From: Lacticaseibacillus camelliae DSM 22697 = JCM 13995
Lineage (GTDB): Bacteria > Bacillota > Bacilli > Lactobacillales > Lactobacillaceae
DNA length: 32,745 nucleotides
Reading direction: 5' to 3'
NCBI RefSeq assembly: GCF_001311195.1
Contig: NZ_BBAJ01000021.1
Span: 1-32,745 of the forward strand
A program made the position numbers and the translations under genes. The notes beneath the pieces are model-generated. The model searched no databases. It was not told the DNA's origin and saw only the letters and a list, made by a program, of their open reading frames with translations. This document shows positions 16,436 to 31,645 of this stretch, one piece after another (positions within the stretch are counted from its first letter, which is position 1; every line of letters starts with the position of its first letter).

Positions 16436-16521
16436 TGCGGGTGAAAAGACTCGAACTTTCATGATCGATAATGATCACAAGATCCTTAATCTTGCGCGTC
16501 TACCAATTCCGCCACACCCGC
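16436..16521 (-). tRNA. tRNA-Leu, anticodon AAG
   Basis: 86 nt. The acceptor GCGGGTG / CACCCGC is perfect and the discriminator is A. The D-arm is GCG...CGC with GG in the loop. The anticodon stem CAAGA / TCTTG has the loop TTAAGGA, which places AAG at 34-36. The long class II variable arm has stem TGATC / GATCA, and the T-arm has TTCGAGT. The 3' CCA is not encoded. A34 is expected to be read as inosine after TadA deamination, allowing CUU/CUC decoding. Confidence 0.95.
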
Positions 16522-17076: not shown

Positions 17077-17835
17077 TCAGGCAAAGTACTGCAGCAGATC
17101 CTCCCGCGTCAGTGCCGCCTTTTTAGCCCCGGCGTAATCGGCGACCAGCCGGCCATCTTGCAGCACTACCAGCCGATTGCCATACTTCAGCGCCTCTTCG
17201 AGCTGATGGGTGATCATCAGGCAGGTCAGTTTTTCCTGCCGCACGATTGAATCCGTCAAGGTCATGATTTCGGCACTGGTATGCGGATCCAGCGCCGCGG
17301 TGTGCTCGTCCAAAAGCAAGAGTGCCGGTTCTTTCATCGTGGCCATCAACAGGCTGAGCGCCTGACGCTGCCCGCCCGACAGCTCCTCGGTCGGCTTGTC
17401 CAGTGCCTGATCGAGCCCGTTGGTGGTTTTCTTGGCAAGGGCTAAAAACTCGGCCATGCGGCCCTTTAGCCCCCGTAACTTCAGCGTCAGGTGCTGGCCG
17501 CGGCGACTTGCCAGCAGCAAATTTTCCGCAACAGTCATGCGCGGCGCCGTGCCCATCTTCGGGTCCTGAAACACCCGCGCGATCAGTCGTGCGCGGTGCT
17601 CCGGACGCGCGGTGGTGATGTTTTCGCCGGCCAGCGTAATGGTGCCGCCGGACACCGGTTTATCCCCAGTAATGGCGTTAAACAGCGTGGACTTGCCGGC
17701 CCCGTTCGCGCCCAGCACCGTGACGAAATCCCCCGGTGCGACGGTCAAGTTGATATCTGAGAGCAGCGCCCGGGAGGTCTCACCCACCGCGACGTTGACG
17801 CCCACGTGACTCAATGTTAATTGTGCTTCAGCCAT
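17077..17835 (-). CDS. trpZ: Tryptophan-type ABC importer, ATP-binding subunit
   Basis: 252-residue ABC ATPase. Walker A is GANGAGKST (about residue 42-50), the Q-loop FQDP, the signature LSGGQRQAL, Walker B LLLLDEH and the H-loop THQ. It overlaps the permease gene by 8 bases (ATGGCTGA), ensuring matched translation. The partners (BPD_transp_2 permease and an ABC_sub_bind protein) define the TrpXYZ-type importer studied in streptococci. Substrate is inferred from the partners and the Trp-codon leader. Intact. Confidence 0.92.
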   Translation of the reverse strand: MAEAQLTLSHVGVNVAVGETSRALLSDINLTVAPGDFVTVLGANGAGKSTLFNAITGDKPVSGGTITLAGENITTARPEHRARLIARVFQDPKMGTAPRMTVAENLLLASRRGQHLTLKLRGLKGRMAEFLALAKKTTNGLDQALDKPTEELSGGQRQALSLLMATMKEPALLLLDEHTAALDPHTSAEIMTLTDSIVRQEKLTCLMITHQLEEALKYGNRLVVLQDGRLVADYAGAKKAALTREDLLQYFA

Positions 17836-18730
17836 TTGTCTTCACCCCATTTTTCAGTACGCGCCGAATCTTGAACCGATGCTCAAAGGCCGGGATCATG
17901 ATTAGAATTGCCAGGACGATCGCCGAGATCAGCTGCAAGTCGTTTGGCGAAAAGCCCAGGCGCAGCACCAGCAGCAGCACGAACCGGTACAAGATACTCC
18001 CCAGTACCGTGGCGACCATGCGCTGGCTCAAAGTCAGCTCGCCGAACAGTACCTCGCCGATGATGATCGAGGCTAGCGCAATGACGATGACCCCGATGCC
18101 CATGTTGACGTCCGCGTACCCGTTGTTTTGCGCGATCAGCGAACCAGACAGCGCCACCAGGCCGTTGCCGACAATCAGACCCAGCACTTCCTGGCGCGCC
18201 GGCGCGATGCCCAGGCTGCGCGCCATGGTGGGATTATCCCCGGCAGCAATGAAGCCTTGGCCCAACTGCGTGTTCAAAAACAGGATCAGCAGGGTGACCA
18301 CCACCACGGCGACGATCAACCCCACGACCACGCTGTCGAAATATGGCGGCAGTGCTTTCAGAAACTTGGCACCGAATAAATTCGGCTTGTTCAGCAGCGA
18401 CAGATTCGACCGCCCCATGATCCGCAGGTTGACCGAGTAAGCCCCGGTCATGACCAGAATGCCGGCGAGCAGCACCGGCACCTTGCCGACTGTGGTGAGA
18501 AACCCGGTGATCGCCCCGGCCGCCATACCGGCCAGCATCCCCAGTAGGGTCGCCAGCAGCGGCGTCACCCCGTGAGAGATTGCGGCCACAGTGACCGCTG
18601 CGCCTAACGGGAACGTGCCTTCAACCGTCATATCCGGAAAATCCAGAATGCGGAAGGTCAAAAACAGCCCGACGCCCATTAAACCGTACAACAAGCCTTG
18701 CCCAATGGCGGAAACTCCTAAGCCCATCAT
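17828..18730 (-). CDS. trpY: Tryptophan-type ABC importer, permease subunit
   Basis: 300 residues with about eight to nine hydrophobic segments, branched-chain amino-acid-permease-like fold (BPD_transp_2). Typical blocks are FRILDFPDMTVEGTFPLGAA near the N-terminus and GQGFIAAGDNPTMARSLGI in the middle. Its start ATG shares one base with the trpX stop (TAATG); a second ATG follows directly. Intact. Confidence 0.92.
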   Translation of the reverse strand: MMGLGVSAIGQGLLYGLMGVGLFLTFRILDFPDMTVEGTFPLGAAVTVAAISHGVTPLLATLLGMLAGMAAGAITGFLTTVGKVPVLLAGILVMTGAYSVNLRIMGRSNLSLLNKPNLFGAKFLKALPPYFDSVVVGLIVAVVVVTLLILFLNTQLGQGFIAAGDNPTMARSLGIAPARQEVLGLIVGNGLVALSGSLIAQNNGYADVNMGIGVIVIALASIIIGEVLFGELTLSQRMVATVLGSILYRFVLLLVLRLGFSPNDLQLISAIVLAILIMIPAFEHRFKIRRVLKNGVKTNG

Positions 18731-19724
18731 TATTCAATCACCGTCCCATTCTTACGTGCGTCTTCGATCACCGACTGCGGGATCGTCATGCCCAGGACCT
18801 TGGCCTGCTTAAGGTTGACAATCAGCTCACCCTTCTTGGCGAAGTGAATCGGCGTGGTGGCCGGATCCTTGCCTTAAGAATCGCAGCGGTCATCTTGCCG
18901 GTTTCCACCCCAAGGTCAAACTGGTTCAAGCCTAACGTTGCGACCCCGCCCTGCCTGACCATAGTGTCAACAGTTGGGAACACCGGAATTTTCTGGGTGT
19001 TGGCCACCTGGACCAGCGTCGGCATCGCAGAGGCGATCGTGTTATCGGTCGGGACGAAAATCGCGTCGACCTGCGTCACCATTTGCGCGGCCACCTGATG
19101 CAGATCGTTGGTTGAGGCAATCGTGAAGTTCTTGACCGTAAAGCCTTCGTTGGGCGCCTCTTTCGTGACCATCTTCGCCTGCACCTGGGCAGAGGAATCA
19201 CTTGATGTGGAGATCACCCCAAGGACCTTCGCTTGCGGCATGATCTGCCGCACCAACTTCAGCTGCGCCTTGATGGGCGCCTGATCCGAAACCCCGGTGA
19301 TGTTGTTGCCCGGCCGAGCGTTGTTCTTGACCAGGCCAGCCCCTTTGGGATCCGTGATCGCCCCCAGCACGATGGGAATCTTCGTTGAAGCATCCGCCAG
19401 AGCCTGCGCGGAAGGTGTTGCGATGCCGACCATTGCAGCCGCTTTTTCGTTGACGAAGCGCTCAGACATCGTCTTCATGTTGCTCTGGTCATTCTGAGCG
19501 TTTTGAAAATCAATTTTCACGTTCTTGCCCACGGTGTAGCCCTCATCATCGAGGCCTTTAATAATGCCCTTATGGATCGCATCCAGCGCCGGGTGGCTCA
19601 TGAGCTGCAGGATGCCAACAGTTGGCACCTCCGCCTTCGTTTCGGCCTGCGGTTTCCCGGTTGTGACGAACGCGAAGCCGAGAAAGCCGAGCAGGACGAC
19701 GATCAATCCAATCATACGTTTCAT
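18730..19724 (-). CDS. trpX: Tryptophan-type ABC importer, substrate-binding protein (frame break near C-terminus as given)
   Basis: ABC_sub_bind family. The N-terminal block VGILQLMSHPALDAIHKGI, then NAQNDQSNMKTMS and GAITDPKGAGLV are very close to TrpX-type proteins. The N-terminal hydrophobic segment (residues 5-22) lacks a lipobox cysteine, so it is probably held by an uncleaved signal anchor. The frame breaks near 18872 (AAGGCAAGG lacks one G). Repaired, the tail continues LIVNLKQAKVLGMTIPQSVI and ends at the TAA overlapping trpY; length 331, normal. The start MKRMIGLI follows GGGGG about 8 bases upstream. Expression is controlled by the leader at 19748-20003. Confidence 0.93.
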
Positions 19725-19747
19725 ATCTGAATTCCCCCTAAGTAATC

Positions 19748-19787
19748 AAAAAGGCAGATCCAACCGCGCAGGCTGCGGAGATCTGCC
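19748..19787 (-). terminator. Second leader terminator, directly upstream of trpX
   Basis: GGCAGATC / GATCTGCC outer stem with an inner CCGC / GCGG hairpin, followed by TTTTT on the minus strand. It ends 24 bases before the trpX ATG. Its internal TCCGCA is complementary to the 3' arm of the first terminator. Confidence 0.88.
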
Positions 19788-19792
19788 GAAAC

Positions 19793-19832
19793 AAAAATCC
19801 GCACAAACTCAAAAGTTCAGAGTCTATGCGGA
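19793..19832 (-). terminator. First (attenuator) terminator of the trpX leader
   Basis: 13-bp stem TCCGCATAGACTC / GAGTTTGTGCGGA (two G-U pairs), loop of about 9, followed by TTTTTG. Its 5' arm contains CATAGAC, which can instead pair with the upstream GTCTATG. Confidence 0.88.
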
Positions 19833-19905
19833 CACACGTGCTGAACGCCAACATAGACACAACCTGCGTCTGGCAGGTCGTGTCAGCGACCTACCTAGTG
19901 TTGGC
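19822..19905 (-). promoter_or_regulatory. Mutually exclusive attenuator hairpins of the trpX leader
   Basis: Two alternative folds share bases. Fold A (anti-antiterminator): GCCAACA (19899-19905) pairs with TGTTGGC (19847-19853) around an inner 12-bp hairpin, GACACGACCTGC with GCAGGTTGTGTC (19856-19884). Fold B (antiterminator): GTCTATG (19852-19858) pairs with CATAGAC (19822-19828), which is the 5' arm of the first terminator. The GCCAACA arm lies in the last codons of the leader peptide, 6 bases past the Trp codon, so a ribosome paused there would block fold A and favour fold B, i.e. read-through. Confidence 0.75.
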
Positions 19906-19945
19906 TTTGCCAGCGAACATTAATCTGGGTAGTGAAGTTAGTCAT
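19895..19945 (-). CDS. 16-residue leader peptide with one Trp codon (trpX attenuator)
   Basis: ATG at 19945, 8 bases after a perfect AAGGAGG site, to the TAG at 19895. The peptide is MTNFTTQINVRWQSQH. The single Trp is codon 12 (TGG at 19910-19912), four sense codons before the stop. The strong ribosome site, short length, position between the promoter and two terminators, and overlap with the first hairpin arm all point to a regulatory leader peptide, not a functional protein. Confidence 0.82.
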   Translation of the reverse strand: MTNFTTQINVRWQSQH

Positions 19946-19974
19946 ATGGCGTTCCTCCTTAAATGATTAATTTG

Positions 19975-20003
19975 AGAATACGTTTCTCGCCGGACCGTGT
20001 CAA
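19975..20003 (-). promoter_or_regulatory. Promoter of the trpX leader and operon
   Basis: TTGACA, 17 bases, TATTCT on the minus strand; transcription would start about 20 bases before the leader peptide ATG. No terminator separates it from the gene upstream. Confidence 0.85.
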
Positions 20004-20025
20004 GGCTTTGGCGAATTTTTTTTTG

Positions 20026-20463
20026 CTAGGCGATCCGCGTGATCTTGCTCAGCTGCGTCATGATGCGCTCAGTCGCCGCGTCTTGGGCTTTTTCGGCGGC
20101 ATTAAACGCCTCGACGTCAAGGCTTTGCGGCCCATCTTTCAGACTCGCTGTCATCGCCTGGCAGCCGGCGACGAAATCGCGATAGGCCGCCACCAGCAAT
20201 TTGTGCGTGCCGATGAACCGGGCTGGCGGTGTGGTATTCGCCAAGGTGGTCAGCAGCTCCCCGTACTTCTCGGTGCCGTCTTCAAACAGCTGCTGGGTGG
20301 CACCGTAAGTTTGCGGGTCAAAATCGGCGATAGTGCCGGCGTCGATGGCCTCGCGAAGCGCCGTGAACTTGGGGTTGAGCAGATTCTGTTCCTCCTCAGT
20401 GCCGCCCATGACCTGCTGCATGACGTTGCTGAAGTGGACCATTTTTTGCTGGTTTTTATTCAT
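20026..20463 (-). CDS. Uncharacterised helical protein in the Mn-riboswitch operon
   Basis: 145 residues, intact, not recognised. It is acidic to neutral and predicted all-helical, with no signal or membrane segment. Blocks that look conserved-like are LFEDGTEKYGELL, TTPPARFIGTHKLLVAAYRDFVAGCQAM and EAFNAAEKAQDAATERI. The ATG is 8 bases after AGGAGG. It lies 24 bases after the P-type ATPase with no terminator between, so it should be under the same yybP-ykoY riboswitch. This suggests, without proof, a part in metal homeostasis. Confidence 0.8.
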   Translation of the reverse strand: MNKNQQKMVHFSNVMQQVMGGTEEEQNLLNPKFTALREAIDAGTIADFDPQTYGATQQLFEDGTEKYGELLTTLANTTPPARFIGTHKLLVAAYRDFVAGCQAMTASLKDGPQSLDVEAFNAAEKAQDAATERIMTQLSKITRIA

Positions 20464-20487
20464 TTGAAAATCCTCCTGAAAACCAGT

Positions 20488-23144
20488 TTACCCCTTTTTG
20501 AGGTGGCGTTGGCAAAACTTCACGACTTCGACGATCACAATCATCGCGACCCCCGCGCCAAGCACGGTCGCCCACTGGAAACCGTCGAGCTCGGTCACGT
20601 GGAACAAGCCGTTGAAGCCCGGCACCAGGATGGTAACCGCCAGCAGCAAGCCGCTGAGCAAAATGGCCCAGTTGAAGGTCCGATTGCGGAAGAAGCCAAC
20701 GGTGAAAAGACTCTGATGAACCGACTTCACATTGAAAGCGTGGAACAGCTGAATCAGCCCAGTGTGGCGTAGGCCATCGTGAGCGCATCGGCGTGAATCG
20801 CCGCGTTCGTGGTGTGGATCGGCCAGGTAATGGCGATGAAGTACACACCTAAAGTCAGCAGGCCTTCCAAAATGCCCTGCCAAATCACGGCCTGACCGAC
20901 GCCGCCGGTGAAGAAGTTCGACTTGCGGCCGCGCGGCTTTTGTTTCATGATCCCGGGCTCGGTGGGTTCAACGCCCAGCGCGATGGCCGGGAAAGTATCG
21001 GTGACTAGGTTGATCCACAGGATGTGAACCGGCGCCAGCAGGTCCCAGCCCAGCATTGTCATCATAAACAGGGTCAGGACCTCACCCAGGTTGGCGGACA
21101 GCAGGTACTGGATGGCTTTCTGAATGTTGGAAAAGACCTTGCGCCCTTCCTCGACGGCAATCACGATGGTGGAAAAGTTGTCATCGGCCAGCACCATGTC
21201 GGAAGCGCCTTTGGACACTTCCGTCCCGGTGATGCCCATGCCGATGCCGATGTCGGCCGCCTTAAGGGCCGGCGCGTCGTTCACGCCGTCCCCGGTCATC
21301 GCGACCACCTTGCCGCGCTTCTGCCAGGCGTTCACGATCCGCACCTTGTGTTCCGGCGCCACCCGCGCGTACACCGAATACTTGTCGACATTCTTCTCAA
21401 ATTCCTCATCGCTTTGCTTGTCCAGCTCAGCGCCGGTGATCACGGCCGCGTCATCCCCAGGCGCGATGATGCCTAAGCGCCCAGCAATGGCCTCGGCGGT
21501 ATCCTGATGGTCACCGGTGATTATCAGCGGTCGAATGCCTGCCGCCTTCGCGTCCGCTACCGCCTTAGCGGCTTCCGGCCGTTCCGGATCGATCATGCCG
21601 ACCAGGCCAGCAAAGATCAGGTCCTGCTCAATCGTGTCGGAGTTGACCGAATCTGGCAGCGTGTCCAGGTACTTATACGCGGCCCCCAGCACTCGCAGAG
21701 CCTGCTTGGCCATGCCCGTGTTTTCGCGCAGAATCGTCGCCTCATCCGCCGCGTTCATCTCGTGCACCTCGCCGCCGACCGCCAGCTGGGTGGTGCGCTT
21801 CAGCAGCTGGTCTGGCGCCCCCTTGGTCGCCACCAGGTAGCGGCCATCCGGGAGTTGGTGAATGGTGGACATCAGCTTGCGTTCGGAATCGAACGGCACC
21901 TCGCAACTCGCGGCTCGGCCTTCAGTTCCGCCTTCAAATCAAAATTCTGTGTCTGCCCGTATGCCACCAGCGCCGTTTCGGTCGGGTCGCCAAGCAACTG
22001 CCCGTCATCTTGCATCTTGGTGTCGTTGGAAAAATTCATGATGCGCAGTAGTGGGTTTGCCGACTGCACGCCTTCTTTGGCATCGTGCAACTGACCGTCG
22101 TAGTAAACCTTTTCCACGGTCATCTTGTTTTGGGTCAGCGTGCCTGTTTTATCCGAGGCGATGATTTCCGTGGAACCCAGGGTCTCAACGGCAGGCAGCT
22201 TGCGAACCAGCGAATTCCGCTTGGCCAGCTTCTGGGTCCCCAGGGCCAAAATTACCGTGACAATGGCCGGCAGCCCTTCCGGAATCGCGGCCACGGCTAA
22301 GGAAATCGCGGTCAAGAACATTTCCGGCAGGGTCTCCGCGCCGCGCCAAACGCCCACGGCAAACACAAACGCCGCGATCACCAGGATCATGATGGTGAGG
22401 GTTTTGCCCAGTGCCTTCAGGTTTTCGGACAGCGGCGTCGTCGTTTCCTGCGCCGCGTTCAGCATGCCGGCAATGCGGCCAACTTCGGTTTGCATCCCCG
22501 TGGCGGCCACGACGCCAACGCCGCGCCCGTACGTGATGTTGGAGTTCATGAAGGCCATGTTGGTGCGGTCCCCAATGCCGATGTCATCGCCAACCAAAGG
22601 CGCTGTCTGCTTTTCTACCGGCACCGATTCGCCGGTCAAAGCCGACTCCTCGCTCTTGAGGTTGGCAGACTCCAGCAAGCGCAAATCTGCCGGCACCACG
22701 TCGCCGGCCTCCAGGAGGACAATGTCGCCGACCACCAGCTCCGAGCTGGGGATCGTCACGACCTGACCGCCGCGGCGCACGTGCGCGTTCGGCGTCGACA
22801 TTTTCTGCAGCGCTCGATGGCTTCTTCGGCCTTGCTTTCCTGGAACACCCCGAACGCGGCGTTCAAAATGACCACGGCCAAGATGATCAGGGCATCGGCC
22901 CATTCGTGGACAATGAAGCCAGAAATCAGGGCTGCAACCAGCAGCACAATGATCATGAAATCTTTGAATTGATCCAAAAAGCGCTGCAACAGCGTTTTCT
23001 TCTCGCCTTGGGCCAGAGCATTCGGCCGTTTTGCGCCAGGCGGGTCTGCGCCTCTTGTGCGCTGAGACCTGCCTCCTCATTTGTCTGGAGCCGCTTTAGT
23101 GCTTCATCGTTCGTGATGGCGTAGAACGCCTTTTGCTCTGCCAA
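20488..23144 (-). CDS. P-type IIA cation-transporting ATPase, Ca2+/Mn2+ type (four frame breaks as given)
   Basis: Export pump of the SERCA/PMR1-like group. In order: actuator TGES loop (ALTGESVPVEKQ), M4 ion site AAIPEGLPA, phosphorylation motif SDKTGTLTQNK, KGAP in the nucleotide domain, TGDHQDTA, MTGDGVNDAPAL, then M5-M6 with LSANLGEVLTLF and ILWINLVTDTFPAIALG (Asn and Asp ligands). The start is a TTG at 23144, 8 bases after AAAGGAGG. Frame breaks near 23020, 22811, 21903 and 20757 are each cured by one restored base. Repaired length is about 886 residues, normal for this group. The upstream manganese riboswitch argues that Mn2+ is a physiological substrate, as for YoaB of Lactococcus. Confidence 0.93.
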
Positions 23145-23194
23145 TTAATTTTCCTCCTTTAGCGACCAACTAATTTAAGCTTACCATGTTAAGT

Positions 23195-23235
23195 AAAAAA
23201 AATAGACTTACACTGCCTCATGGCAGCATAAGTCT
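23195..23235 (-). terminator. Riboswitch expression-platform terminator
   Basis: AGACTTATGCTGCC / GGCAGTGTAAGTCT stem with an ATGA loop (two tandem G-U pairs), then A and eight T on the minus strand. Its 5' arm contains CTTATG, the 3' strand of the aptamer P1 helix, so aptamer and terminator exclude each other. Confidence 0.88.
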
Positions 23236-23312
23236 CACAGTTTCAGGTCACACCAGAATTTTGCCTAGCTGATGACATGACCACGGCAAGCGCCGTTAGT
23301 TACTCCCTTATG
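23227..23312 (-). ncRNA. yybP-ykoY manganese riboswitch aptamer
   Basis: P1 is CATAAG (23307-23312) with CTTATG (23227-23232). Directly after the P1 5' strand comes GGGAGTA, and directly before the P1 3' strand comes TGTGAGA, the two conserved edges of the class. Inside are the hairpin ACGGC-GCTT-GCCGT and a second arm GGTCA...TGACC enclosing TCATCAGC...CTGGTG. P1 shares its 3' strand with the terminator, so Mn2+ binding should hold P1 and permit read-through into the ATPase gene. Class identified by eye; a covariance-model search would settle it. Confidence 0.8.
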
Positions 23313-23321
23313 TGTAATATA

Positions 23322-23350
23322 AGTATAACTAATTAACTACTTTTGAGCAA
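23322..23350 (-). promoter_or_regulatory. Promoter of the riboswitch-ATPase operon
   Basis: TTGCTC, 17 bases, TATACT on the minus strand, immediately after the repaired nadE stop. Transcription would begin at about 23315, at the edge of the aptamer. Confidence 0.75.
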
Positions 23351-23353
23351 GCA

Positions 23354-24180
23354 CTATTTCCAAAAGTCGTCGAATACGGTGATCGGCAGGTGCCGCTTGT
23401 GAGCAGACCGCTGGTACCAGCTTTCGATGGTTTCGGCGGCCTGATCGGACACGGCCTTGCTTCCAGGTAGTCGTCGATGTCACGGTAGGAAACGCCCAAC
23501 GCCACTTCGTCAGGCAGTGCCGGCCGATTCTCTTCCAGATCGGCAGTCGGCGCCTTTTCATAAAGGTGCGCCGGGGCGTCCAGCAGCTTCAAAATGCCGG
23601 CGCCTTGGCGCTTGTTCAGCCGCCACAGCGGGGTCACGTCGGCCCCGCCGTCGCCGAACTTGGTGTAGAACCCGGTGACCGCCTCAGCCGCGTGGTCAGT
23701 GCCCACCACGGCCCCACTGCGGGCACCGGCGATGGCGTACTGCGCGATCATGCGGGCGCGGGCCTTCATGTTGCCCTTGTTGAAGTCGGAAACGGTCAGC
23801 CCGTTCGCAGCCACGGCCTGTTCCATGGCGTCGACCGAATCCTTGATGTTGACGCGCATGGTTTCGTCGGCGTGCATAAAGGCGATTGCCGCCATGGCAT
23901 CGGCCTCGTCGGCCTGTTCACCGTAAGGCAGGCGCACCGCAATAAACTTGTAGTCCTGGTCGCCGGTTTCCTGGCGCAGCTCGGTCATCGCCCGTTCCGC
24001 CATGGCGCCGGCAAGCGTCGAGTCCTGGCCACCGGAAATCCCTAACACATAGGTTTTCAGCGCCGGAAAGTGACTGATGTACTGCTTGAGAAAGTCGACT
24101 GAGCGCCGCAGTTCGGTTTCCGGATCAATGGTGGGCTGCACGTGAAGCGCGGCAATAATTTCTTTTTGTAATGGACGCAT
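23354..24180 (-). CDS. nadE: Ammonia-dependent NAD synthetase NadE (frame break near C-terminus as given)
   Basis: Makes NAD+ from deamido-NAD, ATP and ammonia. PP-loop [10 protein letters not shown] (about residue 47-56); other family blocks are [32 protein letters not shown] and the [20 protein letters not shown] end region. The start chosen is the ATG at 24180 ([12 protein letters not shown]), 7 bases after AAGGAG. The frame breaks near 23460 (GAAGCAAGG lacks one G). Repaired, it ends [14 protein letters not shown] at the TAG at 23354: 275 residues, family norm. It follows pncB by 44 bases. Confidence 0.96.
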
Positions 24181-24224
24181 AATATTCTCCTTCAAAGTTG
24201 GGCCGGTATGCGGTCGCAATTTGG

Positions 24225-27485: not shown

Positions 27486-27566
27486 TGGAGGATCTAGGAT
27501 TCGAACCTAGGAACCCGAAGGAACGGATTTACAGTCCGTCGCGTTTAGCCTCTTCGCTAATCCTCC
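27486..27566 (-). tRNA. tRNA-Tyr, anticodon GTA
   Basis: 81 nt. Acceptor GGAGGAT / ATCCTCC, discriminator A. Anticodon stem ACGGA / TCCGT with loop CTGTAAA (GTA at 34-36). Class II variable arm (CCTTCGGG region); T-arm CTAGG-TTCGAAT-CCTAG. The 3' CCA is not encoded. A TATGCT -10-like box lies about 14 bases upstream without a good -35. Confidence 0.97.
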
Positions 27567-31572: not shown

Positions 31573-31645
31573 TGCCGTCTAAAGGATTCGAACCTTCGAC
31601 CCTCGGTTTACGATACCGATGCTCTACCAACTGAGCTAAGACGGC
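31573..31645 (-). tRNA. tRNA-Thr, anticodon CGT
   Basis: 73 nt. Acceptor GCCGTCT / AGACGGC, discriminator A. D-arm GCTC...GAGC. Anticodon stem TCGGT / ACCGA with loop ATCGTAA (CGT at 34-36). T-arm AAGG-TTCGAAT-CCTT. The 3' CCA is not encoded. Confidence 0.97.

Follow-up and report, generated by a model that had tools for sequence, protein, structure and literature searches.

A probable leader-peptide attenuator ahead of trpXYZ in Lacticaseibacillus camelliae and related Trp, Tyr, and Phe leaders in Lactobacillales

Introduction

The enterobacterial trpL attenuator combines a short open reading frame (ORF) with Trp codons near its stop codon, mutually exclusive helices, and an intrinsic terminator. 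Among Firmicutes, leader-peptide attenuators have been described for His (PMC2965389 and PMC9413887) and for the branched-chain ilv-leu genes of Staphylococcus aureus (PMC5794164). Compared by description, as given in the parts of these papers available to us, they share with the locus considered here a codon-rich leader peptide and a terminator switch in a Gram-positive host and differ from it in the amino acids and genes concerned. The trpXYZ importer operon of Streptococcus suis carries a Trp T-box (PMC9382623), that is, the same operon responds to the same signal (tRNA-Trp charging), but through direct tRNA binding; the accessible text of that paper does not mention a leader peptide.

Two Rfam families resemble parts of the leader described below. 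RF04312, the “trpB motif,” is a strong candidate riboswitch in the classification of Narunsky et al. (2024; PMC11109978), with two or more covarying hairpins, and, as far as the accessible text goes, a classic attenuator was left possible. RF02863, “Enterococcus sRNA 2410,” was filed as a small RNA and not as an attenuator, and two transcripts were described for the Enterococcus faecium RNA behind it (PMC5593968, as far as available). In the open-licence PMC literature, as far as available, we met no account of a leader ORF for either family. Here, we compare with these systems a leader located upstream of trpXYZ in Lacticaseibacillus camelliae. Judging from sequence comparison, this operon is very probably governed by a ribosome-mediated transcription attenuator that reads charged tRNA-Trp.

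Results

The window analyzed here is a 32,745-nt stretch of contig NZ_BBAJ01000021.1 of L. camelliae DSM 22697 = JCM 13995. The genome is a draft of 2.54 Mb in 161 contigs (84.5% complete), and Lacticaseibacillus hegangensis is near to it (97% TrpX identity). The importer operon lies on the minus strand, as do all elements described below, and consists of trpX for the substrate-binding protein of a tryptophan ABC transporter (18822 to 19724), trpY for the permease (17828 to 18730, PF02653), and trpZ for the ATP-binding protein (17077 to 17835, PF00005). Despite an apparently frame-shifted C-terminal end, the trpX product scores as a TrpX equivalog, with 422 bits compared to the NCBIfam cut-off of 390.

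Upstream of trpX, an earlier note on this DNA had described a promoter, a ribosome-binding site, a short frame, and two overlapping complementarities, all of which are present on the minus strand. The promoter, TTGACA-17-TATTCT (19975 to 20003; TTGACA at 20003-19998 and TATTCT at 19980-19975), has 10/12 matches and is the sole promoter-like site in 19500-20500, where shuffled sequences average 0.5 sites. The ribosome-binding site AAGGAGG (19954 to 19960) is followed by a 16-codon leader ORF, MTNFTTQINVRWQSQH, which extends from the ATG at 19945 through the TAG stop codon at 19897-19895 (19895 to 19945 with the stop) and has a TGG codon at position 12 (19910 to 19912), the proposed stall site in the light of a position scan of relatives. 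GCCAACA (19905-19899) is complementary to TGTTGGC (19853-19847), and GTCTATG (19858-19852) is complementary to CATAGAC (19828-19822) inside the 5′ arm of a terminator hairpin at 19832-19798. The leader fold has a z score of −5.3, and none of 200 shuffles was equally stable. The terminator hairpin was found by folding; a simple terminator scan of 19500-20500 with a loop limit of 8 bases returned 0 terminators.

To follow the leader in other genomes, we collected relatives of TrpX; 139 of the 151 genomes in the family (Lactobacillaceae, as named relatives indicate) contained them. The 166 upstream regions examined comprised 16 named loci (including Enterococcus and Streptococcus), 30 further loci, and 120 fetched ones; leaving out eight weaker paralogues (L163-L170) and two duplicates (L099 and L101) gave 156 regions, window included. 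A script informed of W-containing endings found a short ORF with one to three Trp codons in 149 of the 156. When a neutral criterion was applied (ATG, a Shine-Dalgarno–like stretch, 9 to 25 codons, and W among the last eight), 123 of the 156 regions satisfied it, compared to a mean of 3.3 and a maximum of 5 in 20 shuffled sets and to 4 reverse complements; the leader ORF is therefore not a chance occurrence. The script missed the leader in seven regions (L031, L032, L043, L045, L051, L064, and L130), in one of which, L032, the ORF is present but cut at the region edge.

The 149 leaders carry one (91 leaders), two (51), or three (7) Trp codons, with tandem WW in 40, and two to four codons separate the last Trp from the stop in 131. 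The single TGG to which the earlier note had drawn attention is thus confirmed for the window and is not odd, being the commonest form. Two leaders (L129 and L147) are reduced: They have a Trp ORF and a terminator, apparently without the hairpins of segments 1 to 3 described below. Of 104 W leaders, 78 have a motif [LIVF]N shortly ahead of the aromatic residue, compared to 28.4 (maximum 40) in shuffled peptides, as do 26 of 26 F/Y leaders; its codons vary, which suggests selection on the leader peptide itself.

The comparison of leaders defines six segments that can form two mutually exclusive folds, an OFF fold (helices 0:3, 2:3, and 4:5) and an ON fold (helices 1:2 and 3:4). Segment 0 (19899 to 19905) is the GCCAACA within the ORF, whose pairing with 19853-19847 shows covariation. 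Segment 1, GGTAGGTCG (19887 to 19895), has the final stop-codon base as its first position and pairs with 19880-19872 in the ON fold. Segment 2 (19872 to 19884) has two alternative partners, segment 1 in the ON fold and 19867-19856 of segment 3 in the OFF fold. Segment 3 (19847 to 19867), the anti-terminator arm, has segments 2 and 0 as its OFF partners and segment 4 as its ON partner, through 19858-19852. Segments 4 (19820 to 19832) and 5 (19798 to 19810) are the 5′ and 3′ arms of the terminator T1, next to which lies a U-rich tract at about 19797-19788.

To model the OFF fold, we built the covariance model R1 from 18 sequences, among them that of the window (19786 to 19915), which matches it with 118.7 bits. 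R1 was searched in 100 sources, namely the window and 99 loci from among the 104 non-redundant leaders; the alignment took in the 70 whose matches were under 9e-5, the 30 lower-scoring ones being omitted. Because this alignment was fitted to the OFF fold, it favours the OFF counts: 91.8% of cells are paired, and both sides changed in 30 of 32 pairs (328 cells compared to 100.1 in shuffled alignments). For the ON helix 1:2, which lies outside R1 and competes with 2:3, 87.2% of cells in the 70 leaders are paired and 9 of 9 pairs changed on both sides (81 cells, compared to 27.8 when shuffled and at most 29 when slid). For the ON helix 3:4, the values are 90.8%, 4 of 7 pairs, and 13 cells compared to 3.0 in shuffled alignments; slid controls gave up to 16 doubly changed cells, yet no more than 61% of their cells were paired. 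A covariation record of both folds is the sign that would be expected of an attenuator. The sequences share kinship, and the p values throughout are non-independent. As regards the comparison of trpX orthologues proposed in the earlier note, the short frame, its Trp codon, and both folds with compensatory change were all found to be conserved.

The earlier note had suggested that a ribosome stalled at TGG frees GTCTATG by covering GCCAACA. Conservation and covariation support attenuation by the Trp codon, but the proposed mechanism is incomplete: The 12-bp hairpin 2:3 also holds the GTC of GTCTATG, so covering GCCAACA is insufficient, and the missing step is helix 1:2. When charged tRNA-Trp is scarce, the leader ribosome would stall at TGG and cover segment 0, leaving segment 1, at and past the stop codon, free to pair with segment 2. 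With helix 1:2 formed, segment 3 would be available to segment 4, and T1 would not form. In the opposite state, a ribosome at the stop codon would mask segment 1, 2:3 would pair, segment 0 would later lock segment 3, and 4:5 would build T1 and end transcription. We infer that the ORF is translated, that stalling and termination take place, and that the device responds to tryptophan.

To estimate the effect of ribosome position, the leader was masked to 12 nt beyond the start of the A-site codon, and the remainder was folded. This was done for 88 of the 104 non-redundant leaders, 16 being dropped for want of a first terminator placed 55 to 100 nt past the stop. In equilibrium folding with T1 complete, T1 formed at every ribosome position (means 0.83-0.87) without discrimination; the switch must therefore be kinetic. 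A scan of nascent RNA ending in the T1 loop was adopted after this result was known. The mean chance that segment 4 is held upstream (n = 88) was 0.85 when the A site contained the first Trp codon or the one after it and 0.83 when it contained the codon preceding Trp. It was 0.66-0.72 for positions two to eight codons ahead of Trp, 0.72 for a ribosome at the stop, and 0.69 with no ribosome. The Trp value exceeded the stop value in 68 of the 88 leaders, but between Trp and the stop the value fell across 0.5 in only 12 leaders and rose across it in 2. In L005, the nearest relative of the window, which stands in for it in this and the duplex tests (near-copies were removed), the values differed little (0.97 for Trp, 0.93 for the stop, and 0.94 without a ribosome). 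On average, the modeled behavior agrees with a kinetic switch that is adjusted to the Trp codon.

Segments 1 and 2, with their helices 1:2 and 2:3, were absent from the earlier note, as were two further elements. One is a second hairpin with a U tract, T2 (19753 to 19787; fold of −20.2 kcal/mol), which is seen in relatives as well: Two or more hairpin-U sites occur in 79 of 104 leaders compared to 12 of 104 reverse complements. A genuine terminator at T2 would likewise have to be defeated in the ON state. This would probably be achieved by the freed arm of T1, which would pair with the 5′ half of T2 and break T2 as well, in the manner of a domino. In the window, segment 5 (TGCGGA, 19803-19798) can form six pairs with segment 6 (TCCGCA, 19779-19774), which lies in that half, a pairing that blocks just the inner stem of T2.

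Across 69 leaders, the 5:6 duplex has a median energy of −9.4 kcal/mol and is stronger than GC-matched non-cognate duplexes (p 2e-9, kinship uncorrected), with z under −2 in 32% of leaders; four other pairings of the T1 and T2 pieces did not differ significantly from non-cognates (p 0.06-0.45). In a genus alignment of 12 sequences, 98.3% of the cells of helix 5:6 are paired, and 3 of 6 pairs (4 cells) are doubly changed. Compared to shuffles, the duplex of L005 (−10.1) is ordinary (z −0.7). When segment 5 was compared with all downstream sequence, the signal in Trp leaders was significant (p 1e-7), as it also was for the segment 4 control (9e-4), and it was not significant in 26 Phe/Tyr leaders (p 0.34). 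T2 is found in only 9 of 40 Phe/Tyr leaders; their 5:6 duplexes do not differ significantly from non-cognates (n = 6, p 0.12) and in these few cases are strong compared to shuffles (median z −4.3). The sequence data thus support the domino in Trp leaders but, among Phe/Tyr leaders, only in single cases. The two E. faecium transcripts would fit two terminators, a reading that the accessible text of PMC5593968 does not give them. We also considered T2 as a mere duplicate of T1, which would make 4:7 pair as strongly as 5:6, but the 4:7 pairing is less clear (p 0.064; 26% with z under −2); T2 may be a partial duplicate.

The other additional element is a potential helix between the leader start site and the segment 3 region, made up in the window of GAACGCCA (19954-19947) and TGGCGTTC (19850-19843). 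In 88 leaders, the Shine-Dalgarno–AUG stretch pairs with this region better than GC-matched non-cognates do (p 1.6e-5), while codons 4 to 9 show no such preference (p 0.19); in the 16 WQSQ leaders taken alone, the start-site pairing was not significant (p 0.27). Such a pairing may hold back re-initiation and so leave the decision to the pioneer ribosome.

The weaker TrpX paralogues set aside above (L163-L170) all have Phe/Tyr leaders (8 of 8), with peptides such as MRNDSKPQLNNSFFFGFFR (L165) and MIKNTNNCLQLNNRYYYSYYR (L168), and several of these leaders match RF02863. The window genome also has a pure Tyr leader, MTTNKPTQLNRLYYYGYYG (L002, contig C93), with T1 and T2, ahead of a TrpX paralogue; its ATG is located 307 bases upstream of the importer match. 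The leader endings grade from Phe (FSFSFFR, L164) through mixed (FYFSYFR, L163 and L166) to Tyr (YYYSYYR, L168), and some of these leaders may sense more than one amino acid. In the Phe/Tyr set, cognate and non-cognate pairings did not differ significantly for 0:3 and 3:4 (p 0.09 and 0.08).

Of 295 Lactobacillales genomes, 157 have an RF02863 match, which in 71 is above the cut-off. Among 30 high-scoring loci, the script found a leader ending in a Phe/Tyr cluster in 29, the exception being L200. The loci precede a gene for a TrpX-like importer or, by inspection at 7 of the 30, one for shikimate dehydrogenase (aroE; L196-L198 and L201-L204), an assignment confirmed by Pfam at both loci tested, L197 and L201. 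Shikimate genes thus seem to share the aromatic leader device. The RF02863 model starts inside a leader ORF ending in SYFR and holds 0:3 and 1:2, like the scaffold in the window, but the codons are those of Phe and Tyr.

In a tree of 65 importers (42 with W leaders and 23 with F/Y leaders), a single change between W and F/Y labels was sufficient, compared to 19.2 in shuffles (0 of 500 as low), a separation helped by the fact that the two groups came from different searches (TrpX similarity and RF02863). The Tyr importer of the window genome lies on a long branch. Importers with W leaders (the window and 2 of 2 relatives tested) score 420-422 bits, above the TrpX cut-off of 390, and 3 of 3 importers with F/Y leaders tested score 281-328 bits, under it; both sets of scores come from incomplete translations. 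The identity of the leader codons matches the amino acid of the downstream gene, where for F/Y importers we infer the substrates.

RF04312 was found in 159 of the 295 Lactobacillales genomes, in 52 above the cut-off. Of the high-scoring loci, 29 new ones were read, and all 29 have a Trp ORF with a ribosome-site–like stretch upstream (one with a GTG start), whose stop codon is located 12-30 nt ahead of the motif. By inspection, the downstream gene is TrpX-like in 23 loci, trpB in 3, and unassigned in 3; both trpB genes tested encode members of the PLP-enzyme family. The window itself matches RF04312 with 28.1 bits (E 0.047), under the gathering score of 59 bits, whereas the trpX leaders of L011, L012, and L015 match it above threshold. 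The shared place before trpX and the membership of L011 and L012 in the R1 seed link the window to these two members of the family. The first hairpin of RF04312 corresponds to helix 2:3 and the second to T1, and, like the window device, the motif lies ahead of trpX-like genes (and of trpB); the leader ORF, helices 0:3 and 1:2, and the second terminator are unmentioned in the accessible text of PMC11109978. At gathering scores, Rfam matches in the window are limited to three tRNA genes on the minus strand (16436-16521, 27486-27566, and 31573-31645), and neither the window nor the leader has a match to the trp leader family.

Discussion

At the level of sequence, the leader ORF, its conservation, the covariation of both helix sets, and the tracking of importer clade by codon identity are observed directly. 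Together, they make it very probable that the leader is a ribosome-mediated aromatic amino acid attenuator scaffold of Lactobacillales, of a known kind and with new variant features. Likeness to trpL extends to leaders ending in GWWRS (L161 and L162). The window device differs from trpL in that the antiterminator is 3:4 and the terminator 4:5, with one extra segment; segment 0 within the ORF locks segment 3; a second hairpin-U site is often present; and the gene controlled is an importer.

The riboswitch proposed for RF04312, in which tryptophan or another metabolite would be bound directly, draws on the classification of this family in PMC11109978 and on the sub-threshold match of the window, but the motif’s own authors, as far as their accessible text goes, left a classic attenuator open. 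A Trp ORF ahead of 29 of 29 high-scoring loci read, an encoded amino acid that varies with importer clade on a like scaffold, and the involvement of the end of the ORF and its stop codon in 0:3 and 1:2 make direct binding quite improbable; the leader-ORF results for RF04312 favour an attenuator. The earlier note had raised, as its own alternative, a TnaC-like arrest of the nascent peptide in which free tryptophan would be sensed at the stop and the arrested ribosome would mask segment 1, favouring termination. Such an arrest predicts the same direction of control, and the [LIVF]N motif with its varied codons could mean that the peptide partly matters. TnaC-type leaders have Trp about 12 codons ahead of a UGA stop and Pro at the end, features that the window leader lacks. 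In the relatives, the last Trp is close to the stop (two to four intervening codons in the 131 leaders noted above), UGA stops occur in only 7 of 149 leaders and Pro among the last six residues in 6 of 149, and the distance from N to the stop is variable. The existence of Tyr and Phe versions and of WW, YYYGYY, and FFFGFF forms also argues against such sensing, which we consider as poor a candidate as direct binding.

Control by a T-box or by TRAP, which is usual for Gram-positive trp genes, has, for the T-box, a precedent in the S. suis operon (PMC9382623, as far as available), and a search of the window genome at E up to 0.01 gave 30 T-box matches, one of them above the Rfam cut-off. None of these is on the contig of the window, which has no RF00230 match, and none is found in the leader even at E up to 10; control of trpXYZ by a T-box or TRAP is the least credible of the alternatives. 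In front of a gene read as trpD and of trpB are T-box matches that score 77 and 73 bits, below the cut-off of 93. The genome thus appears to use both devices for Trp, putative Trp T-boxes and the leader-peptide attenuator. That leader-peptide control of Trp genes is unusual, as the earlier note had it, holds for Gram-positive trp genes, but in Lactobacillales such leaders are common and no rare exception.

Until now, the related Trp, Tyr, and Phe leaders found in many lactic acid bacteria have been catalogued as a riboswitch candidate and a small RNA. The attenuator reading offers a concrete mechanism for the orphan riboswitch candidate RF04312 and for RF02863, indicates that leader-peptide attenuation is common for aromatic amino acid import in these bacteria, and raises the prospect that leader codons may predict importer substrates (Trp, Tyr, or Phe). 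A wider picture would have the stall set a chain of helices (1:2, 3:4, and 5:6, or 2:3, 4:5, and 6:7) that acts on two serial terminators and closes the leader’s own start site, with one scaffold re-coded for Trp, Tyr, or Phe across Lactobacillales and the two Rfam families as parts of it. We put this forward tentatively, as a conjunction whose chance of holding in full is slightly short of even. If the domino is true, two terminators are controlled by one sensor, an arrangement for which we met no precedent in the open-licence PMC literature, as far as available.

Several apparent frame-shifts occur in 18822-24219 of the window, at the end of trpX and, with genes named by inspection, in pieces of a cation ATPase and at the end of an NAD synthetase; they are probably assembly errors or decay. 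Phylum-wide, RF04312 was found in 4 of 398 genomes, in 1 above the cut-off, with nine candidates scored per genome. Two of these loci look like chance matches: L173, where a leader ORF was not seen, and L174, whose sole candidate is an 11-residue frame that starts with TTG and lacks Trp. The other two have leaders, for Trp in L171 and for Phe in L172. In L172, which is outside Lactobacillales, an RF04312-like motif of 52 bits (below the cut-off) is accompanied by the Phe leader MNYINNFNLKIQIFFNNHFR and followed by a transporter of the NSS family.
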